Origin: a virus
Direction: 5' to 3' (one strand)
Length of the DNA: 29,246 nucleotides
IMG/VR virus record: IMGVR_UViG_3300027983_000079
Location: 1 to 29,246 of that record
Part shown: in pieces, positions 3,069-29,246 of the stretch
Position numbering within the stretch: position 1 is the first letter of the stretch
How the letters are laid out: the number at the start of each line of letters is the position of its first letter
Notes under the pieces: generated by a model
Told to the model about the DNA's origin: nothing
Databases searched by the model: none
Seen by the model: the letters and a program-made list of their open reading frames with translations, nothing else
Program-made: the position numbers and the translations under genes

Positions 3069-3821
3069 TTAACCCATCTTTAAATTCTTCATCATACCAA
3101 GTACATTAAAAGCCTGATAAACTTTCATTGACGTTGCCTCCAACATTTTAGTTGGATCATTGTTAGCTAATCTTAACAACATTATTTCCCAACCATATCC
3201 TGTAACGTTCTTATGTCCATAATATTCTTCTCTTTCCTTACCGGTCATATCCTTTAATATTTCCTTTTCCTCCGATTCGTTTAATTCCTTATACTTTTCC
3301 TCGAATAATCCTTCATAAGTCGTGTAAATACTGGTCTTAAACTTTAGATAATCTATTATAACACCATAAACATCTTCTATTATTGACATTTCAAAGACAG
3401 AATTTCTTATGTCTAACCAGTCACCATACTTTTCATAGATATCTTTATTCAAATAATCACCCTTCTTCTCTATTTTTCTGTATAATATAGAGAATATCTT
3501 CGGTAGGTTATAGATATATTCGTCCGAGAATAGGTGTTCAAGGTCAATAAACGCTCCGAACTCAAGTTCTTTAAACGGTACTAGATAAAAATCATCACCA
3601 TTAATATTAATATGTGTCTTATATTCCTTGGCTATAGGTTGGAATATAAATCCAATCTCTTTTTTCATCTCCAATATTACATCATAATCCAATGATTCTA
3701 TCTCATCCAGTGGTCTGTCAAAAACAATAGATAGTATTTCGAATACATCATCTACGTTCTCAACATTGTCTATAATTTCAATATAAGATGATAACGTTAT
3801 GACATCCCATCCTTTAAGCAT
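3069..3821 (-). CDS. Probable tail-assembly chaperone, second of two
   Basis: This protein of about 250 residues is rich in helices. It contains FYLVPFKELEFGAFIDLEHL (about residues 78-97), a pattern seen in tail-assembly-chaperone-like proteins of Bacteroidota phages, and ends with a helical segment (NDPTKMLEATSMKVYQAFNV). The ATG at 3821 overlaps the upstream stop in the eight-base ATGCTTAA, which suggests coupled translation. A TTG at 3830 is a weaker alternative start. The relative frame is +1/-2, which would fit a G/GT-type pair, but I saw no clear slippery heptamer, so separate initiation is preferred. Confidence 0.5.
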   Translation of the reverse strand: MLKGWDVITLSSYIEIIDNVENVDDVFEILSIVFDRPLDEIESLDYDVILEMKKEIGFIFQPIAKEYKTHININGDDFYLVPFKELEFGAFIDLEHLFSDEYIYNLPKIFSILYRKIEKKGDYLNKDIYEKYGDWLDIRNSVFEMSIIEDVYGVIIDYLKFKTSIYTTYEGLFEEKYKELNESEEKEILKDMTGKEREEYYGHKNVTGYGWEIMLLRLANNDPTKMLEATSMKVYQAFNVLGMMKNLKMG

Positions 3822-4320
3822 ATTTATCAATAAGTATTTTTAGAAAAGGTAATACATAATCAGCCGTCATATACTCGTTAAATATAATCTCTCTTTTGTT
3901 CTCACTCGTATTGCCGTCTGAATAAAGGGTTGCAGCCATTTTAGAAATATAGAAAATATTATCTTGTTTCATAGCCTGTGATATACTCTTAATCTGTCTA
4001 GCTTTAAATATAAACCTATCAGTATTGCCAACCAGTTTATAAACAACTCCATCGTGTGTAAATGATTCCTTGGGTACCTCCGTCTCTATATCTGCTTTAA
4101 CCGCCGATAAGATATCATCAATCACCTCAATATCAATATCCTCCAATTGGTCTTTACTTATCTCTCCGTCTATTAAACACTCTATCATAGATAATGATTT
4201 ATCAATAGGATCCATTTCTTTTTGTGCAACCGATGATAGTTGTTGAAATCTATCTAAGTTTAACTCCGACAATTCATTATAAACGTTAAAATCCTTTTCA
4301 TTAATTCTGATTACTCTCAT
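3814..4320 (-). CDS. Probable tail-assembly chaperone, first of two
   Basis: This 168-residue protein has a beta-rich start (MRVIRINEKDFNVYNELSEL) followed by helices, including a segment about recognising total length or counts of residues (DPIDKSLSMIECLIDGE). Its size and its overlap with a larger helical partner gene fit the role of a lambda gpG-like chaperone that coats the tape measure before tube polymerisation. The assignment rests on synteny and architecture. No diagnostic motif is visible. Confidence 0.45.
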   Translation of the reverse strand: MRVIRINEKDFNVYNELSELNLDRFQQLSSVAQKEMDPIDKSLSMIECLIDGEISKDQLEDIDIEVIDDILSAVKADIETEVPKESFTHDGVVYKLVGNTDRFIFKARQIKSISQAMKQDNIFYISKMAATLYSDGNTSENKREIIFNEYMTADYVLPFLKILIDKYA

Positions 4321-4367
4321 ATAATTTATTTTATTTTAATATATATATTGAGTATAAAATACGTCTT

Positions 4368-4871
4368 TTAGATAAAAATAATTGGTGAGTTATAAGGTGA
4401 TGAACTATTTGGTGGCATATCATCATTGTTATCGTTCTCATATTCTGTAAACAATGAACCGTTAGCACATAGGTATTTAATAAGTCGTTGCTCATAAAAC
4501 TCTGCTCTATCCATAATCAGGCTTCTTAGATAACGGAGGATCTCCAGGTCTGTCGATGCCGAATAATCCCCGTTCTGTGTCATAACACCTTTGTTTTTTA
4601 TTTGAAAATTTATAAAAGGTAGACACATCTCAGCAGTTCTATTAGCCAAAGCCGGCTTAATATAACTAAGTAATATTGATTCATCAGCCGTTAATGTATT
4701 TGCGATAAACTTATTCTGTAGATAAACATAAAAGTTGGTACCCAATATATCCTGTATATTTGAGTCCTGTGATATTTCAGCAGTTGGTTTAATCTCAATC
4801 CACTCAACCATTGGTCCGATAGGTGTAAAGGCTTTTATATATTGTTCTGTTATAAATAGTGTTAGTGCCAT
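4368..4871 (-). CDS. Head-tail connector/adaptor candidate
   Basis: This 167-residue protein starts MALTLFITEQYIKAFTPIGP and continues with IQDILGTNFYVYLQNKF, LLSYIKPALANRTAEMCLPF and a long helix ending EQRLIKYL. The order of an N-terminal FITE-YIK-FTPI segment, an ILG segment and then helices is typical of short head-completion (gp6-like) proteins found just after the portal in Bacteroidota phages. The C-terminus (about residues 142-167) is acidic, then Ser/Pro-rich, and probably disordered. It lies 69 bases downstream of the portal stop, in a gap filled by the 66-bp repeat. Confidence 0.5.
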   Translation of the reverse strand: MALTLFITEQYIKAFTPIGPMVEWIEIKPTAEISQDSNIQDILGTNFYVYLQNKFIANTLTADESILLSYIKPALANRTAEMCLPFINFQIKNKGVMTQNGDYSASTDLEILRYLRSLIMDRAEFYEQRLIKYLCANGSLFTEYENDNNDDMPPNSSSPYNSPIIFI

Positions 4872-4881
4872 ATTATTTCAT

Positions 4882-4947
4882 TTCTTCTTTTTTTGTGTAT
4901 AATTCTACCTCGTTTAAAACGAAGGTAGATCCAATCCCACTCATTGA
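4882..4947. repeat. 66-bp direct repeat, distal copy after the portal stop
   Basis: This segment is identical over 66 bases to 4974-5039, with an offset of 92. In its own frame it encodes SMSGIGSTFVLNEVELYTKK and then EEMK plus stop, a second, out-of-frame version of the portal C-terminus. Confidence 0.85.
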
Positions 4948-6164
4948 ATGAATCCTAGTACTTTTTCAATGACTTCTTCTTTTTTTGTGTATAATTCTAC
5001 CTCGTTTAAAACGAAGGTAGATCCAATCCCACTCATTGATAATAGTCCATTAATGATAGCCTCAATCTGTCTTTGTTCTGGTTGTATGGACTGCTTGTTA
5101 AAAATCTCAAAAGATATGTCTATATCACCATCTCCAAATCCTTTAGGAACTGGGAGCCCCATAACACTAGGACTTATTTTATGTGAGTAACAAATATTCA
5201 ATGATGCTTGCTCACCCGTAACAATAAATTGTTTATCTAAATTGGACGTTGCAACCGGTGTTATAGTCGGTGCATTTTCAGGCCCATTGGCCCAAAGTAT
5301 AGTTGGCTTACCTGTTCTCTCAGGCCCAATCGCATCTTGTACCGATTTTATGATGGATCTTTGGTCCTCACGTGTGTCCGGTATTTTATGGAACTGGAAT
5401 ATCATACCAGGATTAACACTATTCTTTAGATTAGAGTTATGAAAATTACCTATATTACCATCCAATTGGATCCACTCCTTACCTGGTATATAATCCGGTA
5501 GAGTGTAGAACTTAGTCTCTGGGTTTTTCTTAACATATCTTATCACCTCAACCTTTTGCTCCTTATCAGACCGGTTAAAGTTGGGGTATTCCTTTACCTG
5601 GTATCTTCCATATTCTCTCCAATCAAATGAATAAGAATACTTCAATATTTTACTAGGGTTAGTAGGGTCTGGGTTTAGTCTGACCGATGATGGTTGTAAT
5701 CTTTCAACCTTTATCAGTTTAGATTTTGTCGAGTTCCAATATAATTTTAAATAAACAGTGTTATGTAACAACCAGTCCAATGTAATCTCTAACAATAAAT
5801 TATTAAGATCACCATCACCTGATATAAAATTAATAAATTGTGACAACTCTACTTTTTTCATAGGGTCTAATAACTCAGATCCTTTCAACTCAAAGCCATT
5901 GCCACATATTAAATTCTTCTTAAAATCTATAATAGCCGAGTGTAACCCAGAGGTGTTATAAAGGCTATCAATTTCCTGTGGGAACAAGTTACCCGGTCCG
6001 AATCTTACATAACCATTTCCACTATAAGTCTCGATCCAAGGTTTAGACAATAGGTCAGATCCTCTACCATTTGTATAATAATCACCATAAGAGTGGAACT
6101 CCATTTTAGTTTCAACTATTGGTGTCTTAACATTTCTATTAAATTCAAAACCGAATATATTCAT
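4941..6164 (-). CDS. Portal protein
   Basis: This 407-residue protein is a phage portal, the dodecameric ring through which DNA is packaged. Supporting patterns are an N-terminal YVRFGPGNLFPQEIDSLYNT, LHSAIIDFKKNLICGNGFEL, a central DWLLHNTVYLKLYWN strand region, LQPSSVRLNP, and ISPSVMGLPVPKGFGDGDID followed by an amphipathic helix region. A directly repeated 66-bp segment (offset 92, not a multiple of three) surrounds the stop. The in-frame copy gives KKEEVIEKVLGFIQ-stop, whereas the second copy would end KKEEMK-stop. The present C-terminus therefore appears to have been changed by a recent duplication. The gene lies downstream of the capsid gene. Confidence 0.85.
   Translation of the reverse strand: MNIFGFEFNRNVKTPIVETKMEFHSYGDYYTNGRGSDLLSKPWIETYSGNGYVRFGPGNLFPQEIDSLYNTSGLHSAIIDFKKNLICGNGFELKGSELLDPMKKVELSQFINFISGDGDLNNLLLEITLDWLLHNTVYLKLYWNSTKSKLIKVERLQPSSVRLNPDPTNPSKILKYSYSFDWREYGRYQVKEYPNFNRSDKEQKVEVIRYVKKNPETKFYTLPDYIPGKEWIQLDGNIGNFHNSNLKNSVNPGMIFQFHKIPDTREDQRSIIKSVQDAIGPERTGKPTILWANGPENAPTITPVATSNLDKQFIVTGEQASLNICYSHKISPSVMGLPVPKGFGDGDIDISFEIFNKQSIQPEQRQIEAIINGLLSMSGIGSTFVLNEVELYTKKEEVIEKVLGFIQ
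4974..5039. repeat. 66-bp direct repeat, copy inside the portal gene
   Basis: This copy is read in the portal frame and encodes MSGIGSTFVLNEVELYTKK. It is separated from the distal copy by 26 bases that encode VIEKVLGF in the portal frame. Confidence 0.85.
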
Positions 6165-7856: not shown

Positions 7857-8777
7857 TTATGAGTACAATACAACTTCTGATCCATATGCATAAGTTACTC
7901 CAAATTTCAATCTACCAACAACTCTGACAGTGTCGTCACCAGTCGTGTTAAGCATTGGGAGTATTCTAATGTCTTGGAAATCTGACAATAGGTCTGATAC
8001 CAAGAATAGGTTATTCAACTCAGCTGCCACCATTCTGTCAGGTGGAAGACCTTGTGCCAGTACCAACTCAATTCCCAAGAATGTTGGTTGTGCGTCTTTC
8101 GTGTAGAAGGCCTCAGCTGAAGCGGCTGCAACAGCTTGTTTGTAAGCTCTAAATACGTTACTTGATACAAATATTCTCAAGCTGGGTGAGAAGCTTACAG
8201 TCTCTGGGATAGCGTCAAAAACAAGGTTCATTTCAGCTATTACGTTAGCGCTTGTTATAACTGCTGCCGGAACATCAATTACATCAGCATCAGCTGTAAA
8301 TTGCTTTATCAATCCGTCACATAGACCCATTGGGTATATAGGGTTTCCTGTATCACCTTGCCATGTGATTACTTCAAAATCAGCTGACATTTTATTTGAC
8401 AATTCAGATGTTAAATAGTTTCTGAACTCAGAAGGTAGGAAATCACCATTGTTAGAGCCACTAGCAATCTCACTAGATACATAAGATGTCTCTAGAGTTG
8501 CCTGACAAATCTCAATGTTCACTTTAATCGCACAAGGTGTGAACAAAGTCTCACTAAGTGTTCCAGCTCCTTGGTCATTAAATGTACAAGAGTCTGTCTG
8601 TAGAACGTTACCAAGACCAGCTTTTCTTATTCTAGCACTATCTTTTACGTCAAATATTGGTGTAAATAATTCCTTAGAACCACCTTCAATCAAAGCCGCT
8701 CTATAGATCTCTGCCGAGTTAACTGGATTGGTTGTTGAAGTGTTCGTAATATCAAATCTTAATTCGTTATTCTTCAT
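7857..8777 (-). CDS. Major capsid protein, HK97-like fold
   Basis: This 306-residue protein is the likely shell subunit. The length, its position right after the protease/scaffold gene, and a layout with a helical N-arm (SAEIYRAALIEGG), an E-loop-like beta segment, a long spine-helix-like region (FRNYLTSELSNKMSADFEVI) and a C-terminal beta-rich A-domain ending GRLKFGVTYAYGSEVVLYS all fit an HK97-fold capsid protein. Three cysteines lie in the middle segment (CTFND, CAIKV, ICQ). A variant of the TATAACCAATTAT element lies 35 bases upstream, and a strong hairpin follows its stop. Confidence 0.75.
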   Translation of the reverse strand: MKNNELRFDITNTSTTNPVNSAEIYRAALIEGGSKELFTPIFDVKDSARIRKAGLGNVLQTDSCTFNDQGAGTLSETLFTPCAIKVNIEICQATLETSYVSSEIASGSNNGDFLPSEFRNYLTSELSNKMSADFEVITWQGDTGNPIYPMGLCDGLIKQFTADADVIDVPAAVITSANVIAEMNLVFDAIPETVSFSPSLRIFVSSNVFRAYKQAVAAASAEAFYTKDAQPTFLGIELVLAQGLPPDRMVAAELNNLFLVSDLLSDFQDIRILPMLNTTGDDTVRVVGRLKFGVTYAYGSEVVLYS

Positions 8778-15156: not shown

Positions 15157-15203
15157 CCCACAGACCAACCAGACTCTAAGATTCCTGACCAACCTGAATT
15201 ATT
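15157..15203. repeat. 47-bp iteron unit 1 (GACCAACC at 15163 and 15187)
   Basis: This segment is identical to 15214-15260. Each unit carries GACCAACC twice, 24 bases apart, in the contexts CAGACCAACCAG and CTGACCAACCTG. Confidence 0.75.
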
Positions 15204-15213
15204 CCAACACACC

Positions 15214-15260
15214 CCCACAGACCAACCAGACTCTAAGATTCCTGACCAACCTGAATTATT
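15214..15260. repeat. 47-bp iteron unit 2 (GACCAACC at 15220 and 15244)
   Basis: This is the second unit, offset by 57 bases. It gives a 24-33-24 spacing pattern of the four octamers, all in one orientation, as in iteron-type origins or multi-site operators. Confidence 0.75.
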
Positions 15261-15264
15261 TTAA

Positions 15265-15326: not shown

Positions 15327-15827
15327 ATGGGCAATTATAAAGGTGATGACCGATTAGAAAAACATTACACACCTAAACATTTAATTGATGAACTTTTCTT
15401 ACTAAAAGATAAATATGTTGATTTTGATATAACTGAATATTTAGAAAATAGTGCAGGCTGTGGTAATATAGTCGATAGATTTGATAAGGATTATATTGCC
15501 ATTGACATATTCAACGAGAGTAAACGCGAGGATATAAAAGAGTGTGACTATTTAAAAGAAAAGATCGAATATAAAAAAGGTCGTGTGTCAATTATTAACC
15601 CACCATTCAATAAAGGATTAAAGTTCGTTTATAAGTCATTAGAAGAAGGTGATATGACTATCGCTATACTTTCAGTTAATAGTTTAATAAACATAGATTA
15701 TAGTAAGTATTGGTTGTTAGAAGGTCAGGTTTGGAAGAATAAGGACTTCGGTAGTTGTAAATTAAGTATATGTATAGTTGTCTTAAGAAAAAGAAAAGAA
15801 GGAGATAAATATGAGTACGAAAACTAA
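15327..15827 (+). CDS. Small adenine-type DNA methyltransferase
   Basis: This 166-residue protein has an N-terminal HYTPKHLIDEL (residues 13-23), the SAM-binding motif I as LENSAGCGNI (39-48), an acidic motif II (YIAIDIF), and catalytic motif IV IINPPFNKG with NPPF at 91-94. This is the gamma-type order of N6-adenine methyltransferases. No separate target-recognition domain is evident, so it may be a short solitary enzyme, perhaps protecting phage DNA from host restriction. It is the first gene of the operon containing the paralogue array and overlaps the next start by 17 bases. Confidence 0.75.
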   Translation: MGNYKGDDRLEKHYTPKHLIDELFLLKDKYVDFDITEYLENSAGCGNIVDRFDKDYIAIDIFNESKREDIKECDYLKEKIEYKKGRVSIINPPFNKGLKFVYKSLEEGDMTIAILSVNSLINIDYSKYWLLEGQVWKNKDFGSCKLSICIVVLRKRKEGDKYEYEN

Positions 15828-16161
15828 TCATATATCAAGTTCTCGTAAAGTTGGTGGTGATTATTTTAGACTTATGTTCGTAAGAGTATATAACACACCT
15901 TTAAAATACTATTTAGATAAGTTTAATCATAATGATTACCATATATTAAAATTTACTAATAATCAAAGGTTAATAACATATGATGAATTATTAGAGTTTA
16001 AATATTGTGGATATGTATTTTTCAAGAAGAGTTTTAACATTGAAAGTATATTAGAGTGGTGTAAATTTATAAATGATTTTGATAAATGTCACCCGCAATA
16101 TTTAGTAAAACCAACTCCTCCTTTCTCACCATCAAAAATAATCATTAAAAATGAAAACTAA
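15811..16161 (+). CDS. Tandem paralogue array, copy 1 (116 residues)
   Basis: This is the first of six adjacent related genes of unrecognised family. Shared blocks are an N-terminal KTNHIS-RKVGGDYF, the core TPLKYYLDKFNHNDYHILK, the core ITYDELLEFKYCGYVFFKK, then NIESILEW and the C-terminal PTPPFSPSKIIIK. Copy 1 has a two-residue N-terminal extension and a nine-residue insertion before the C-terminal tail. Its start follows GGAG at six bases, a rare Shine-Dalgarno-like site here, and overlaps the methyltransferase. No catalytic motif is visible. The mix of short helices and strands suggests a small globular domain with a proline-bearing tail. Confidence 0.8.
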   Translation: MSTKTNHISSSRKVGGDYFRLMFVRVYNTPLKYYLDKFNHNDYHILKFTNNQRLITYDELLEFKYCGYVFFKKSFNIESILEWCKFINDFDKCHPQYLVKPTPPFSPSKIIIKNEN

Positions 16162-16477
16162 TCATATATCAAACGGTCGTAAAGTTGGTGGTAATTATTT
16201 TTATCTTGTATATGACAGAAGAGTATCTAACACACCTTTAAAATACTATTTAGATAAGTTTAATCACGAAGATTATTATATATTAAAATCTACTAAGAAT
16301 CAAAGGTTAATAACATATGATGAATTATTAGAGTTTAAATATTCTGGATGTATATTTTTTAGAAAGGATTTGTATAATATTGAAAGTATATTAGAATGGT
16401 GTGATCTTAAATTATTTATATTTATAAATAAACCAACCCCTCCTTTCTCACCATCAAAAATAATCATTAAACAATGA
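16151..16477 (+). CDS. Tandem paralogue array, copy 2 (108 residues)
   Basis: It carries the full set of shared blocks. Its core KYSGCIFFRKDLYNIESILE is identical to copy 4. Before the core it has the unusual YLVYDRRVSN, and before the tail LFIFINK. The ATG lies inside the end of copy 1 (11-base overlap ATGAAAACTAA), so translation is likely coupled. The function is unknown. Confidence 0.8.
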   Translation: MKTNHISNGRKVGGNYFYLVYDRRVSNTPLKYYLDKFNHEDYYILKSTKNQRLITYDELLEFKYSGCIFFRKDLYNIESILEWCDLKLFIFINKPTPPFSPSKIIIKQ

Positions 16478-16800
16478 AAACTGATAATATAGCCAGTGTC
16501 CGTAAACTATTTACTAATTACTTTTGTTTATTTCATACTAAACTACGACATAATATGACGTTGGAAGAACATCTTACGAAGTTTAATCATAATGATTACC
16601 ATATAATTAAAGCGTCCGGAAAACAAAAGGTTGTAACTTATGATGAATTATTAGAATTTAAATATAGTGGATATATATTTTTTAAGAAGAGTTTGTATAA
16701 TGTTGAAAATATATTAGAATGGTGTAATTTATTCTCGTTTCAATATTTAGTAAAACCGGTTCCTCCATTCTCACCATCTAAAATAATCATTAAAGAATGA
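16474..16800 (+). CDS. Tandem paralogue array, copy 3, the most divergent (108 residues)
   Basis: It keeps FNHNDYHI, TYDELLEFKYSGYIFFKKSL and the tail PPFSPSKIIIK, but the N-terminal third is different (VRKLFTNYFCLFHTKLRH, then MTLEEHLTK in place of TPLKYYLDK), and the core has KQKVV where the others have NQRLI. It is therefore either an older copy or one under divergent selection. It starts at an ATGA overlap with copy 2. Confidence 0.8.
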   Translation: MKTDNIASVRKLFTNYFCLFHTKLRHNMTLEEHLTKFNHNDYHIIKASGKQKVVTYDELLEFKYSGYIFFKKSLYNVENILEWCNLFSFQYLVKPVPPFSPSKIIIKE

Positions 16801-17126
16801 AAACTAATCATATATCAAACAATCGTAAAGTTGGTGGTGATTATTTCTATTTAAAATATTTAAGAGAGTCTAATACACCTTTAAAATACTATTTAGATAA
16901 GTTTAATCACGAAGATTATTATATATTAAAATCTACTAAGAATCAAAGGTTAATAACATATGATGAATTATTAGAGTTTAAATATTCTGGATGTATATTT
17001 TTTAGAAAGGATTTGTATAATATTGAAAGTATATTAGAATGGCGTGATCTTAAATTATTTACATATTTAGTAAAACCAACTCCTCCTTTCTCACCATCAA
17101 AAATAATCATTAAAAATGAAAACTAA
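16797..17126 (+). CDS. Tandem paralogue array, copy 4 (109 residues)
   Basis: This copy begins MKTNHISNNRKVGGDYFYLK and shares KYLRESNTPLKYYLDKFNHE with copy 6 and its core with copy 2. It has an Arg where the others have Cys in EWCD (EWRD). It starts at an ATGA overlap with copy 3 and overlaps copy 5 by 11 bases. The long identical nucleotide blocks, including synonymous sites, point to recent duplication or gene conversion. Confidence 0.8.
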   Translation: MKTNHISNNRKVGGDYFYLKYLRESNTPLKYYLDKFNHEDYYILKSTKNQRLITYDELLEFKYSGCIFFRKDLYNIESILEWRDLKLFTYLVKPTPPFSPSKIIIKNEN

Positions 17127-17445
17127 TCATATATCAAGTGCTCGTAAAGTTGGTGGTGATTATTTTAGACTTATATTCGTAAGAGCATCTAACACACCTT
17201 TAAAAGACTATTTAGATAAGTTTAATCACGAAGATTATTATATATTAAAATCTACTAATAATCAAAGGTTAATAACATATGATGAATTATTAGAGTTTAA
17301 ATATTGTGAATATGGGTTCTTCAAAAAAGACTTGTATAATATTGAAAGTATATTAGAATGGTGTGATACTTTTATGATAAAGTTTTTAGTAAAACCAACT
17401 GCTCCTTTCTCACCATCAAAAATAATCATTAAAAATGAAAACTAA
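17116..17445 (+). CDS. Tandem paralogue array, copy 5 (109 residues)
   Basis: The N-terminal block (SSARKVGGDYFRLIFVRASN) is close to copy 1, while the next block (FNHEDYYILKST) is like copies 2, 4 and 6, so the gene is a mosaic. Changes at the core end (KYCEYGFFKKDL) and before the tail (DTFMIKFLVKPTAPF) are specific to it. Both junctions are 11-base overlaps. Confidence 0.8.
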   Translation: MKTNHISSARKVGGDYFRLIFVRASNTPLKDYLDKFNHEDYYILKSTNNQRLITYDELLEFKYCEYGFFKKDLYNIESILEWCDTFMIKFLVKPTAPFSPSKIIIKNEN

Positions 17446-17758
17446 TCATATAATAAAAATTAATAAAATTGGTGGTGACTATTTCTATTTAAAATATTTA
17501 AGAGAGTCTAATACACCTTTAAAATACTATTTAGATAAGTTTAATCACGAAGATTATTATATATTAAAATCTACTAGGAATCAAAGGTTAATAACATATG
17601 ATGAATTATTAGAGTTTAAATATTGTGGATGTATATTTTTTAGAAAGGATTTGTATAATATTGAAAGTATATTAGAATGGTGTGATCTTAAATTATTTAT
17701 ATATTTAGTAAAACCAACTCCTCCTTTCTCACCATCAAAAATAATCATTAAGGAATAA
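17435..17758 (+). CDS. Tandem paralogue array, copy 6 (107 residues)
   Basis: This is the last copy. It differs at the N-terminus (HIIKINKIGGDYF) and is otherwise nearly the same as copy 4. It ends KIIIKE and TAA, converging with the stop of the minus-strand HTH gene one base later (17759). I see no clear terminator hairpin between the two. Confidence 0.8.
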   Translation: MKTNHIIKINKIGGDYFYLKYLRESNTPLKYYLDKFNHEDYYILKSTRNQRLITYDELLEFKYCGCIFFRKDLYNIESILEWCDLKLFIYLVKPTPPFSPSKIIIKE

Positions 17759-17941
17759 TTAAAAAAGTTCTAATAGATCAATAGAACCTTCTATTTGGTA
17801 GAATTCGATAAGTCTTCTAGGTGGGACTATGTTTGTAGTTCTCCAAGTAGATACGCTCATTTTACCAATATTGAAATATACTTCAACTTTTTGATCGTAT
17901 TTCTTTTTTATGTATAGTTCTATGAATAGGAAGTCAATCAT
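17759..17941 (-). CDS. Small HTH-like regulator coupled to the methyltransferase
   Basis: In this 60-residue protein, the region VYFNIGKMSVSTWRTTNIVP with PRRLIEFYQIEGS (about residues 21-53) looks like the recognition part of a Cro/HTH-type DNA-binding protein. The ATG overlaps the TGA of the methyltransferase gene (ATGA). A small HTH gene tied to a methyltransferase recalls the control (C) proteins of restriction-modification systems, though these usually precede the nuclease gene. It lacks a dimerisation extension. Confidence 0.5.
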   Translation of the reverse strand: MIDFLFIELYIKKKYDQKVEVYFNIGKMSVSTWRTTNIVPPRRLIEFYQIEGSIDLLELF

Positions 17942-19500
17942 TTTGTTGCATTTTCAATTAGTTCTATTTCTTCTTGTGATAATACAAAGTATTTGTACAG
18001 TTTTTCATCTGTCCAATATTCAGAAAGGTTTACTTTTGGCAATTGGTTCAGTGTTATTCTTTCGTTATATTGGGTATATTGAAATAATTTATATAAAAAC
18101 TTATAAACTTTGGTGTTAAATAACAGACAAGCATATTCGCCTATTTCTTCATTTTTTAAAATATAAACTTGACTATAATTAGTGCTAATCATAGCATTTG
18201 AATCATCTATCATTTTTAGTGATGATATTCTGTGTGTAAATATTTTTCTGTCCTTTAGATATGGTGAATATTTATCAGAATATAATATCCCCTTACTTGG
18301 ACCACAATAAACAGGTATGTTATATATATTTGATTTTTTATTTTGTAATGACTTACCATAATGGTCCTTTCTATCCATCCTAAAATCAAACTTATCTATT
18401 ATAGATATTTTACTTAAAATTGAAAATATAATATTATTTATAGTCTTTGGTAATAAATTAAAATTTGATAGGTCTACATCTGTAATAATATTATTACATT
18501 TAATTTTTGTCGCATTTTCGTATGGTTTGTTTTCTATGAGAAAAAATGAAAAATCAACTCCAATCCCATCGAAGAATTTATTCACATCATATGATATAAA
18601 CAGAGTATTTTTTTTATTGAAAATATCATTAAATAAATTGGTTGAGTTGTGTGGATTTTTTGTGCCTGATGCCCAAGATGATGGGGTAACAAAACTTAAA
18701 TATCCATTTTTATTAATTTTATTAAGAGACTTCTCAATAAAAATTCTCCATAACTTAACATTAGATGAAGTTTTTGATATAATTGAGTTATTCTCCATTT
18801 GATATGGTGGATTACCAACCACAATATCCACTTTATCAAGTTCCCAAACCTCTTTCATATGTTTATCAAATCCTTCTTCTAAAAAGGAACCTGTATAAAT
18901 ATTTAATTTATACTCATCATATGGATCAACTAAACACATATATAAAAACATATTCTTTGGTTGCAACTCACAAACATAAATCATATTTTCAATAATATGT
19001 TTATATCTAAGTTCCTCATTTGGTTCCCATTCTTTTAGACCATCCATTAATTTCCAAATAACCATAAGTGGATATGGTCCAGTTCCGTTTGCTGGATCTA
19101 ACCACTTTAAATTAGGATTTGACCAAACTTCTTCAGGTAGAGTAGATATCATCTCTTTTATAAGTTCGAGTGGGGTCATAACTTCACCGAATTTCTTCTT
19201 TTCAACTTCACCGACCTTAACATATTCACTAAGCATTAAAATAACTTCTTTTAGATGATCTATTTTAGTTAGTTTTTCTCTTTGTATAAAAGATCTAATC
19301 TTCATAAATAGATTTCTATCCTTATCTAAAAAAGCTAAAATAGCCAATCTCTTCTCATTAAGAGGTAATCCTTTAATCTTTTCAACTAAAATTGGATCAA
19401 GTGTATCTAACATCATCTTATCAATGACTTCCTCGAAAATATTCTTATCCCCCTTTTCTGAGTATTCGTTATAATGTGATACTGAGTATGTTCCTATCAT
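17938..19500 (-). CDS. Eco57I/TaqI-like adenine methyltransferase with specificity domain
   Basis: This 520-residue protein has a helical N-terminal region (1-100), then motif X-like FGEVMTPLELIKEMI (104-118), SAM-binding motif I LDPANGTGPYP (134-144), and catalytic NPPY (230-233, within DIVVGNPPYQ). Downstream sequence (SFVTPSSWASG, later NIPVYCGPSKGILY) and a long C-terminal region look like a target-recognition domain, as in gamma-type single-chain enzymes. No N-terminal PD-(D/E)XK was recognised, so a separate nuclease would be needed for restriction. A candidate is the divergent gene at 19598. Confidence 0.8.
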   Translation of the reverse strand: MIGTYSVSHYNEYSEKGDKNIFEEVIDKMMLDTLDPILVEKIKGLPLNEKRLAILAFLDKDRNLFMKIRSFIQREKLTKIDHLKEVILMLSEYVKVGEVEKKKFGEVMTPLELIKEMISTLPEEVWSNPNLKWLDPANGTGPYPLMVIWKLMDGLKEWEPNEELRYKHIIENMIYVCELQPKNMFLYMCLVDPYDEYKLNIYTGSFLEEGFDKHMKEVWELDKVDIVVGNPPYQMENNSIISKTSSNVKLWRIFIEKSLNKINKNGYLSFVTPSSWASGTKNPHNSTNLFNDIFNKKNTLFISYDVNKFFDGIGVDFSFFLIENKPYENATKIKCNNIITDVDLSNFNLLPKTINNIIFSILSKISIIDKFDFRMDRKDHYGKSLQNKKSNIYNIPVYCGPSKGILYSDKYSPYLKDRKIFTHRISSLKMIDDSNAMISTNYSQVYILKNEEIGEYACLLFNTKVYKFLYKLFQYTQYNERITLNQLPKVNLSEYWTDEKLYKYFVLSQEEIELIENATK

Positions 19501-19597: not shown

Positions 19598-20179
19598 ATG
19601 GACAAATATTATATACAAGGTCTAAGAGAACGGCTCGCACTAAAAGAGATATACTCTCAACTACCAACAAAAAATAGATATGAGTGGTGTCACTCACCCG
19701 CTGAAGGTAATGATAAATGGGACTCTATCCTGTTCTGCTTTAACAGTGAAAATAAACTAACACACCGGTTTATAATCGAGTGTAAGGTTCGTAACAATTA
19801 TTACCCAACACTATTACTAGAAAAGATAAAATATAATGACTTAAAAAAAGAAGCAAAGAAAAGAGATCTAAAAACAAAGAAGGAGTGTTACATCGATATA
19901 AAAACAACAATCGTCTACATCAACGTAACACCCAAAGGATCTTACTGGTTCTCACTTAAATCGGACAAGATAAATTGGGTACAAGAACTTCATTGGAAGA
20001 AAACAAATGAAAAGTCTCTAGGGAAGATATTAAAGGACGTTGTATACCTGGATACCTCTACCGCGAGATCATTCAGCCTTACTACACAGGACTGTCTTAT
20101 AAACGAAATGGTAGACGTAAAGGAAGATATGAAAAAGGCTCATAGAGAGTTCTGCTTGTACGAGTATATTATGTCATAA
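19598..20179 (+). CDS. PD-(D/E)XK-type nuclease candidate
   Basis: In this 193-residue protein, the arrangement WDSILF with Asp42, then FIIECKVR with Glu61 and Lys63, fits the catalytic D-ExK of PD-(D/E)XK nucleases. It is followed by LLLEKIKYNDLKKEAKKR, a basic helix common in this group. A further beta strand (TTIVYINVTPKGSYWFSL) completes the likely core. It is divergent from the Eco57I-like methyltransferase, which suggests a restriction partner. Other options are a recombination exonuclease or host-DNA degradation. No relatives could be checked. Confidence 0.6.
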   Translation: MDKYYIQGLRERLALKEIYSQLPTKNRYEWCHSPAEGNDKWDSILFCFNSENKLTHRFIIECKVRNNYYPTLLLEKIKYNDLKKEAKKRDLKTKKECYIDIKTTIVYINVTPKGSYWFSLKSDKINWVQELHWKKTNEKSLGKILKDVVYLDTSTARSFSLTTQDCLINEMVDVKEDMKKAHREFCLYEYIMS

Positions 20180-27654: not shown

Positions 27655-29246
27655 TTAAATATTAATTGTGTTGTTATTACTCATACCGATATTAACTGTG
27701 TATTTTCTTAACTTCGTATTGTTTTTCATTTTTCTTTCATATGTACTATCCATTATGTTAACAGCAACATATTGGTCATCAATTAATATAAAAGCCATAG
27801 GAGATGTTATAAGCTCTTCAAAATATATAGACAACTCTTCGGTCATATAATCTGTGTTAATCTCCCAGGTCTCTTCTAATGCAACGTCATACACTCTCTT
27901 TGAATGTTCGGACGTGTTGTAAGCATAAGCAGCACCTGATAGTCCACCAATAAAGCTATTATAGCTTTGTCTCTCTATATTAACCCTTTGTTTATTATTC
28001 AATGTAAAATTCATAGGTATATATGACCCGAATCTATCCATAAACAGCATTGGGTAATTCGTATATCTTTCATCACATAAACACGCAACCGAAAATGTCA
28101 AAGTGTCTGATTGTGTTACGAATCCATTTTCTATCTGTATAGAATATAAGGATACATCACAATCAATAATTGGATATGATCCAAATATAGTTGAGTATAC
28201 CGCGTTGTTTAATCCTCTTGGGCCGACTGATAAGTTCTGAATCTCTGTTTGGTTCCCTGCTATGTTGGGGTTCAATATACTGAACTCACCATTCAACACT
28301 CCACCAGAATCATATGTCTTAACATTATATCTAAACATACCACCGGATAATTTCTTACCCCAAATATTAACAAAAACATCATTCTCTAAACTAACTTCAT
28401 ATTCATTAGCCACTGTCGTTAACCAACTCTGACCTGTACCCGCCGGGTCATAGGGTGAAAAATTCCAATTAATCCATTCGTTGTGTCCCATAACACCGTT
28501 GAAAACATAGTTCTTTGTGTTGAATAGCTGCGGGTCTGAAAAACTTCTACCGTCTGCATATGATATAGAACCCGCGTGTGTGGATGAGTTGTCTAAGTAC
28601 TCTTGGTTCACCTCAACATAGTAATACCCATCATAAGGGCCACCCACGACCGTACCTGTTCCTTCAACAAGGTGTAATCCATCATATTGTTGGTTCAGTG
28701 TTAAAACACCAGGATTAACAGGTGATGATCCTTGATATGGGAAATCAACTGTTACCGAGGTTGCATCAACCGCCGTCACCGTAAAATACCCATTATATTG
28801 TGAGTATAAAAATCCTGGATCCTGTTCAATGAAAACCGTGTAACCCGGTGATATAAAAGTTGTTAAGTTAGTGGGTGTTAAAAATTTAACTATTCCACCA
28901 GACGCAAAGTTATTATCAGTAAATGACCAACTCTGTGCAGCGTCCACAACATCTACCTGATCATTCGATAAAAATAGTGGGGCTATGAGTGATACCAACC
29001 AGACAACATCACCAGTTCCGAAGATAACATCTTCAAAATCCCAAATATATTCATACTCCTCACCTATGTTAACCGAGTATCTGAATCCTGATGATACCGT
29101 GTTATTGAATCCGTATAATACCGGGTCGTTCAGATTAACATCATCTGAAAAAACACCAATATTACTAGCTAATATTTTAGAAATATTTACCTCCAATAGA
29201 TCATCACCATATCTTGGTTTAATCTTTAATGTTGCTAGTGTGACGA
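27655..29246 (-). CDS. C-terminal part of the 574-residue virion protein (5' end at 1-279)
   Basis: The frame remains open from 29246. An apparent start at TTG (29196) is only a window effect, since the same frame continues upstream on the circle to the ATG at 279. The sequence is beta-rich, with repeated Asp/Gly/Thr loops (TVTAVDATSVTVDFPY; DGYYYVEVNQEYLD). Its C-terminus has an insertion- or domain-like segment (ERKMKNNTKLRKYTVNIGMS). The position before the beta-roll fibre suggests a baseplate or tail-tip partner. Function otherwise unknown. Confidence 0.75.
   Translation of the reverse strand, partial: VTLATLKIKPRYGDDLLEVNISKILASNIGVFSDDVNLNDPVLYGFNNTVSSGFRYSVNIGEEYEYIWDFEDVIFGTGDVVWLVSLIAPLFLSNDQVDVVDAAQSWSFTDNNFASGGIVKFLTPTNLTTFISPGYTVFIEQDPGFLYSQYNGYFTVTAVDATSVTVDFPYQGSSPVNPGVLTLNQQYDGLHLVEGTGTVVGGPYDGYYYVEVNQEYLDNSSTHAGSISYADGRSFSDPQLFNTKNYVFNGVMGHNEWINWNFSPYDPAGTGQSWLTTVANEYEVSLENDVFVNIWGKKLSGGMFRYNVKTYDSGGVLNGEFSILNPNIAGNQTEIQNLSVGPRGLNNAVYSTIFGSYPIIDCDVSLYSIQIENGFVTQSDTLTFSVACLCDERYTNYPMLFMDRFGSYIPMNFTLNNKQRVNIERQSYNSFIGGLSGAAYAYNTSEHSKRVYDVALEETWEINTDYMTEELSIYFEELITSPMAFILIDDQYVAVNIMDSTYERKMKNNTKLRKYTVNIGMSNNNTINI
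29113..29246. repeat. Terminal redundancy, right copy
   Basis: This is the partner of bases 13-146. The reading frame of the minus-strand virion gene runs uninterrupted through the overlap, which supports genuine circular continuity rather than a chance repeat. Confidence 0.85.

Follow-up and report, generated by a model that had tools for sequence, protein, structure and literature searches.

Why should a phage carry six consecutive copies of one small gene directly behind a methyltransferase? The question is raised by the IMG/VR record IMGVR_UViG_3300027983_000079, a phage sequence that we analysed over its whole length (29,246 nucleotides, or 29.2 kb, hereafter the window). The six-copy array of the window and its relatives with one to five copies suggest an answer: the small proteins might be swappable recognition parts for one modifying enzyme. 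The observation itself holds up: it recurs, and in a more specific form than was described in an initial annotation made from the letters of the window.

The small N6-adenine-type methyltransferase (15327-15827, + strand, 166 amino acids) is directly followed by six consecutive open reading frames (ORFs) on the same strand, which span positions 15811-17758. Copy 1 (15811-16161, 116 amino acids) is preceded by aaGGAGataaatATG and overlaps the end of the methyltransferase by 17 nucleotides. Copies 2 (16151-16477, 108 amino acids), 3 (16474-16800, 108), 4 (16797-17126, 109), 5 (17116-17445, 109) and 6 (17435-17758, 107) each overlap the preceding gene, by 11, 4, 4, 11 and 11 nucleotides respectively. 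The tandem overlapping paralogues of the initial annotation thus matched the ORF calls exactly. Proteins 2 to 6 are 60-81% identical to the first, with 50 invariant columns, copy 3 being the most diverged (about 60% amino acid identity). Pairwise DNA identity among the copies ranges from 69% to 95%, the latter between copies 4 and 6, and Tandem Repeats Finder (TRF) described the array as a period of 319 bp repeated 5.2 times (score 2197), far beyond chance. An artefactual copy number, raised at the outset as a possible refutation, was not borne out: the copies are 5-31% apart in DNA and the family recurs in other assemblies, one of which (L015) has five copies. We therefore rejected an assembly artefact. 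The array had also been described as one coupled unit under one promoter. The overlaps argue for the coupling, but not the scan for promoters and terminators for the single promoter, since the promoter-like matches in the window were at chance level (26 found, 26.5 expected from shuffled sequence).

We scanned viral contigs using the methyltransferase as first query, and then growing alignments of the copies. The small family was found in 11 further IMG/VR contigs, and in all 12 loci the small gene or genes lay immediately behind the same methyltransferase of about 165 amino acids. There were six copies in the window, five in L015, two each in L010, L012, L014, L016, L019 and L020, and one each in L009, L013, L017 and L033, i.e., 27 copies in total. 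Most junctions between methyltransferase and copy or between copies overlapped (24 out of 27), the other three being gaps of 1, 2 and 31 bases. A search of 11 records (several are fragments, and L033 was outside that search) gave no additional copies away from these loci. The surroundings changed from locus to locus: the arrays were among structural genes in L012, L013 and L017 and before terminase genes in L010, L015 and L033, and in the window the array and the structural block were on different strands. The methyltransferase was the sole constant neighbour of the small genes. We found no relative of the small protein in annotated phages when using three different members as queries, nor in a scan of bacterial genome contigs, whose exact-pattern step may miss distant ones.

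The methyltransferase carries motifs X (HYTP), I (ENSAGCG) and IV (NPPF), which, together with a class I methyltransferase fold, are those of N6-adenine-type phage DNA methyltransferases (YTP, E-N/P-SAG-G, NPPF). It matched the PHROGs family phrog_799 (E 4.8e-10) and the PADLOC model MTase_II (E 4.7e-10), and no Pfam model above its cut-off. Its AlphaFold2 (AF2) model shows a class I core (predicted local distance difference test, pLDDT, 88.9; predicted template modelling score, pTM, 0.85) where the last strand (residues 145-155) is followed by a short tail only. VIA-align placed METTL5 and PH1948 first (Z 15.7, root-mean-square deviation of 2.3-2.4 over 145-149 residues), followed by Erm, KsgA, M.BseCI (Z 13.9, residues 9-244) and M.TaqI (Z 13.7, residues 21-239). 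M.BseCI and M.TaqI aligned over their catalytic parts only, and their recognition domains have no counterpart in the window enzyme. As modelled, this enzyme is a catalytic core without a recognition domain. The initial annotation had linked the small genes to methyltransferases by position; the adjacency in 12 of 12 loci and the bare enzyme make this link more than positional.

Homologues of the methyltransferase were found in annotated phages, namely Felixounavirus, Vibrio, Erwinia, Xanthomonas and Helicobacter phages, then Vequintavirus, Phapecoctavirus and others. These relatives are in one piece, mostly of 253-302 amino acids, and have an extra C-terminal region exactly where the window has separate small genes. 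The Felixounavirus enzymes are 29% identical to the methyltransferase of L020. With the enzyme of a Helicobacter phage as query, most listed matches broke off close to where the core ends (query residue ~177-201 of 298), which is how a diversified recognition domain in the C-terminal part would behave. In Escherichia phage nomine (L072, 1480-2719), the Vequintavirus methyltransferase gene (272 amino acids) overlaps by 38 nucleotides an ORF of 152 amino acids, which is annotated as a methyltransferase yet lacks an obvious methyltransferase motif.

The small proteins have 107-120 amino acids across loci, in one domain. They form a new protein family whose evolution follows a striking pattern. 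The initial annotation did not recognise them, and neither did our profile and structure searches: sequence searches of Pfam, PHROGs, PADLOC and the PDB gave chance-level matches only. Matches to GST and lysozyme were partial (E 0.014 and worse), there was no match to Methylase_S at E up to 1, and TRMT112 was not among the sequence matches. The AF2 model of copy 4 (22 sequences, pLDDT 77, pTM 0.71) has predicted strands at residues 6-8, 16-21, 41-45 and 65-70. Fold searches with this model in the PDB and BFVD had no significant match (best Foldseek E 1.0 and 0.45; VIA Z 2.2). The C-terminal tail is conserved (e.g., KPTPPFSPSKIIIK in copy 6, 17711-17752) and is modelled with low confidence in the monomer (pLDDT below 50 for residues 97-109 of copy 4); it is perhaps a docking segment. 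F17, F36-N37, D40-Y41, K45, K71 and W82 are conserved as well. The isoelectric point is 8.5-9.8 in 20 of 22 small proteins (6.6 and 7.8 in the other two), whereas that of the methyltransferases is acidic (4.8-6.6), so that enzyme and small proteins are mostly of opposite charge. An anti-defence, inhibitor or decoy role had been proposed for the array from its position. We disfavour the decoy, since DNA mimics of the Ocr or ArdA type are strongly acidic small proteins and most copies are basic. Anti-defence by diversification is possible, either via DNA modification or via the binding of host proteins.

The differences between copies are focused. Within each array, amino acid differences peak at residues 7, 9 and 11 and at residues 18, 20, 22 and 24 (copy-4 numbering here and below), with weaker peaks around residues 30, 46/48, 65/67, 78 and 92. 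In copy 4 of the window, the first patch corresponds to positions 16815-16829 (residues 7-11) and the second to positions 16848-16868, where the variable residues alternate with the conserved F17 and L19 of the predicted strand 16-21. From the strand assignment, residues 18 and 20 (probably also 22 and 24), the 7-11 segment and nearby loops would lie on one exposed face of the sheet. In pattern only, a conserved scaffold with its hypervariable residues gathered on one side would agree with the target recognition domains of gamma-class N6 methyltransferases. Column variability correlates positively between independent arrays (Spearman rho 0.13-0.35, P < 0.05 for most pairs). A variable N-terminal third and a variable stretch before the tail had already been noticed, and are now resolved to residues. 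Of the two suggested reasons for the copy number, dosage or diversity, we favour diversity over pure dosage, since the same exposed-looking residues differ.

The comparison of the close relatives L012 and L013 gave the same picture. Nonsynonymous changes affected 8 of 277 sites in the small gene and 10 of 3439 sites in seven other genes, methyltransferase included (P 2e-5, with the caveat that changed bases may stem from few patch events by gene conversion, which makes sites partly non-independent). The small proteins thus show about ten times the amino acid change of neighbouring genes. Synonymous change in the small gene was not raised (P 0.5), and the methyltransferase had no change in 513 bp. 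The differences coincide with the hypervariable columns of other arrays (P 1e-4 to 2e-3, top 25 columns). For example, the 7-11 patch reads IVNFRLV in copy 1 of L012, IENRRPV in its copy 2 and IKNGRPV in L013, in nearly unchanged surroundings. The argument for selection is this excess over neighbouring genes together with the shared positions; within L012 alone, the excess of the nonsynonymous to synonymous rate ratio (dN/dS) over neutrality was not significant (11 nonsynonymous vs 1 synonymous change, P 0.7). A diversity-generating retroelement is disfavoured as the source of the changes: no reverse transcriptase (RVT_1) was found in the 12 records (several are fragments), and the changes are not confined to A.

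Arrays also grow and shrink. The closely related L012, L013 and L017 share their gene order, yet have two, one and one copies respectively. In L012, the final bases of the methyltransferase gene occur a second time before copy 2, with the ribosome-binding-like GGGAGATAAGT and a start, which indicates that the duplicated unit (~373 bases) consisted of the methyltransferase tail plus the small gene. The end of copy 4 of L015 recurs at the start of the downstream gene (KQDET; 1486-1530 and 1886-1930), and the gene behind the array of L019 opens with MEFNKI, like copy 2 (7989-8010 and 8335-8356). Such sequence common to array copies and the next, unrelated gene is the mark of unequal exchange at the array borders, as read from these recurrences, with neighbouring sequence moved in or out. 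In a tree of the 27 copies, these grouped by phage, which indicates either independent duplication in several lineages or homogenisation of the copies within a phage.

The simplest reading of a bare catalytic core that is always coupled to mostly basic, hypervariable small proteins with a conserved core and tail is a split methyltransferase. The strict adjacency and the many overlapping junctions favour it, and the hypervariable columns common to independent arrays, together with the excess of change between L012 and L013, favour recognition subunits. We give slightly less than an even chance to the locus being a split, expandable DNA methyltransferase whose small proteins act in trans as recognition subunits for a single catalytic one. 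A fuller version is more tentative: specificity would reside in an expandable array, with one catalytic subunit and up to six exchangeable hypervariable recognition subunits of a new family, and would evolve as genes are duplicated in tandem and codons replaced at focused sites. In the split-enzyme proposal, the 166-residue protein would be the catalytic subunit and each protein of ~108 amino acids an interchangeable recognition subunit, docking on the enzyme via its conserved core and tail and turning its hypervariable beta-sheet face to DNA. The number of sequence motifs that one catalytic subunit methylates would then equal the number of copies. A tandem duplication, and after it very local changes of codons and exchange among the copies, would create new specificities, and the purpose would probably be the protection of phage DNA from changing host restriction systems. 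The physical complex, DNA as its ligand, one specificity per copy and the anti-restriction purpose are what we infer from the pattern.

Several results weigh against this proposal. By eye, the small proteins can be aligned collinearly with the C-terminal domains of the one-piece relatives (D-Y/F-xxx-K/R ... Y-x-F-x-K), but the similarity is not significant: the best HMMER E-values were 0.02-0.05, for a handful of sequences, and hhalign gave probabilities of 0.1-3%. A common origin with known recognition domains is not established. The model of the small protein has no fold match among solved structures, which does not by itself prove a new fold. L011 has the methyltransferase without copies, at a contig end. 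The top structural matches of the enzyme include rRNA adenine methyltransferases (METTL5, Erm, KsgA), a closeness that makes RNA a possible substrate. Finally, hydrophobic residues make up 43% of those at the most variable positions, which would fit the binding of protein no less well than that of DNA.

This last point keeps the main rival of the split methyltransferase, a repertoire of counter-defence binders. The hypervariable sheet face would neutralise variable proteins of the host or of competing phages, one target per copy, and the methyltransferase would be a separate anti-restriction gene of the same operon. The change in copy number and the local diversification fit such binders as well, and T4 is reported to have overcome a defence system via recombination under experimental evolution (PMC9391042). 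Yet the small genes would not be expected to stay next to one methyltransferase in 12 of 12 loci, over diverse phages, if they acted independently, and they have no match in PADLOC or other families. We consider this reading unlikely. Obligate adjacency and opposite charge are also what one would see if the small proteins regulated the methyltransferase, i.e., activated, stabilised or restrained it, with variability due to coevolution or drift. The closest structural relative of the enzyme, METTL5, was indeed solved in complex with a small partner, TRMT112. However, the partner of a single enzyme should not reach six copies and change on one face while the enzyme stays constant, as it does between L012 and L013, and such regulators are improbable. 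Selection for amount, or the transient by-products of recombination at a short repeated junction (ATGAAAACTAAT), would explain this junction, the pieces of neighbouring genes in the duplication units and the one or two copies of close relatives (L012, L013, L017). We find this decidedly improbable, since all 27 genes stay open, keep the invariant core and differ at the same positions, whereas identical copies would serve dosage better. A structural or packaging role with no tie to methylation, suggested by the structural genes around L012, L013 and L017, is highly improbable given that other arrays lie before terminase genes or, in the window, behind a methyltransferase and in the opposite orientation to the structural block, and that only the methyltransferase is constant.

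If the small proteins are recognition subunits, the phage holds a store of interchangeable specificities that plug into one small methyltransferase and are renewed by duplication and local change, which would be a new solution to the problem of facing many restriction systems. The modules would be very small for natural recognition units (~108 amino acids), and reading the specificities of the 27 variants could give rules of DNA recognition by methyltransferases. If they bind proteins instead, they represent a new scaffold for binding, hypervariable and strongly selected in phages.

The ends of the window repeat each other (13-146 and 29113-29246, 134 bp, 99.3% identity), hence the genome is probably complete in this record, at about 29.1 kb, and either circular or terminally redundant. 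The terminase relatives (Flavobacterium phage 11b and Bacteroides phages) and an encoded BT4734-like protein point to a host in the Bacteroidota. Just upstream of the methyltransferase operon, in a divergent intergenic region, a direct repeat of ~47 bp (CCACAGACCAACCAGACTCTAAGATTCCTGACCAACCTGAATTATT, 15157-15203 and 15215-15261) may serve in control or replication. An Eco57I-type methyltransferase (17938-19500, PF07669, E 6.5e-13) is encoded on the other strand than the array, and beyond it we found a protein of 193 amino acids (19598-20179) whose D...ECK pattern resembles that of PD-(D/E)XK nucleases; L014 encodes a similar-looking protein (827-1414). The window has other repeats: an 87-bp segment occurs twice near the left end (627-713 and 882-968, 94% identity), and a tandem repeat at 4883-5058 (92-bp unit, 1.9 copies, TRF score 266, 66-bp exact core) spans the 3' end of a portal-like gene (4941-6164). 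Among the related contigs, L014 has two neighbouring paralogous repeat proteins (3524-4766, LEGSPxSVGGxFxCxxNQLTT units) behind a sigma-like gene. L012 (102-3395) and L017 (38-1579) have long asparagine-rich repeats (SNSGxIxxNSN units) in the C-terminal end of a structural protein, which differ between these close relatives.

How does the locus compare with known systems? We found no precedent in the open-licence literature for a tandem, copy-number-variable set of separate hypervariable units. The phage N6-adenine methyltransferases of phrog_5172 and phrog_799 (Felixounavirus, Vequintavirus, Phapecoctavirus, Mimasvirus) have a homologous catalytic core. They carry a C-terminal domain in the same polypeptide, whereas the window enzyme stops where the core does; the small genes behind it are separate, and their relation to that domain is unproven. 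METTL5-TRMT112 and PH1948 are the best structural match of the core, and METTL5 also has a small protein partner, but it acts on rRNA with one invariant partner, unlike the multiple variable copies of the window. In Type I systems, the hsdM and hsdS genes overlap and are translationally coupled, and their fusion keeps function (PMC3510504). The window likewise has an N6-adenine catalytic gene that overlaps a coupled downstream gene, a likeness of arrangement to which the specificity role of the downstream gene is our addition; specificity in HsdS is also a separate, highly variable part (PMC3510504, PMC12707154). HsdS belongs to the Methylase_S family and joins two target recognition domains by conserved spacer helices, whereas the putative recognition part of the window is a single domain of ~108 amino acids, present in up to six copies per locus, none with a Pfam match. 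In Bacillus phages, several recognition domains in one methyltransferase protect against many restriction systems (PMC12707154). These multispecific enzymes of temperate phages are C5-cytosine methyltransferases with the recognition domains within one polypeptide, whereas the window has N6-adenine-type motifs and separate, overlapping ORFs; one catalytic unit serves several recognition units in those phages, as we propose for the window.

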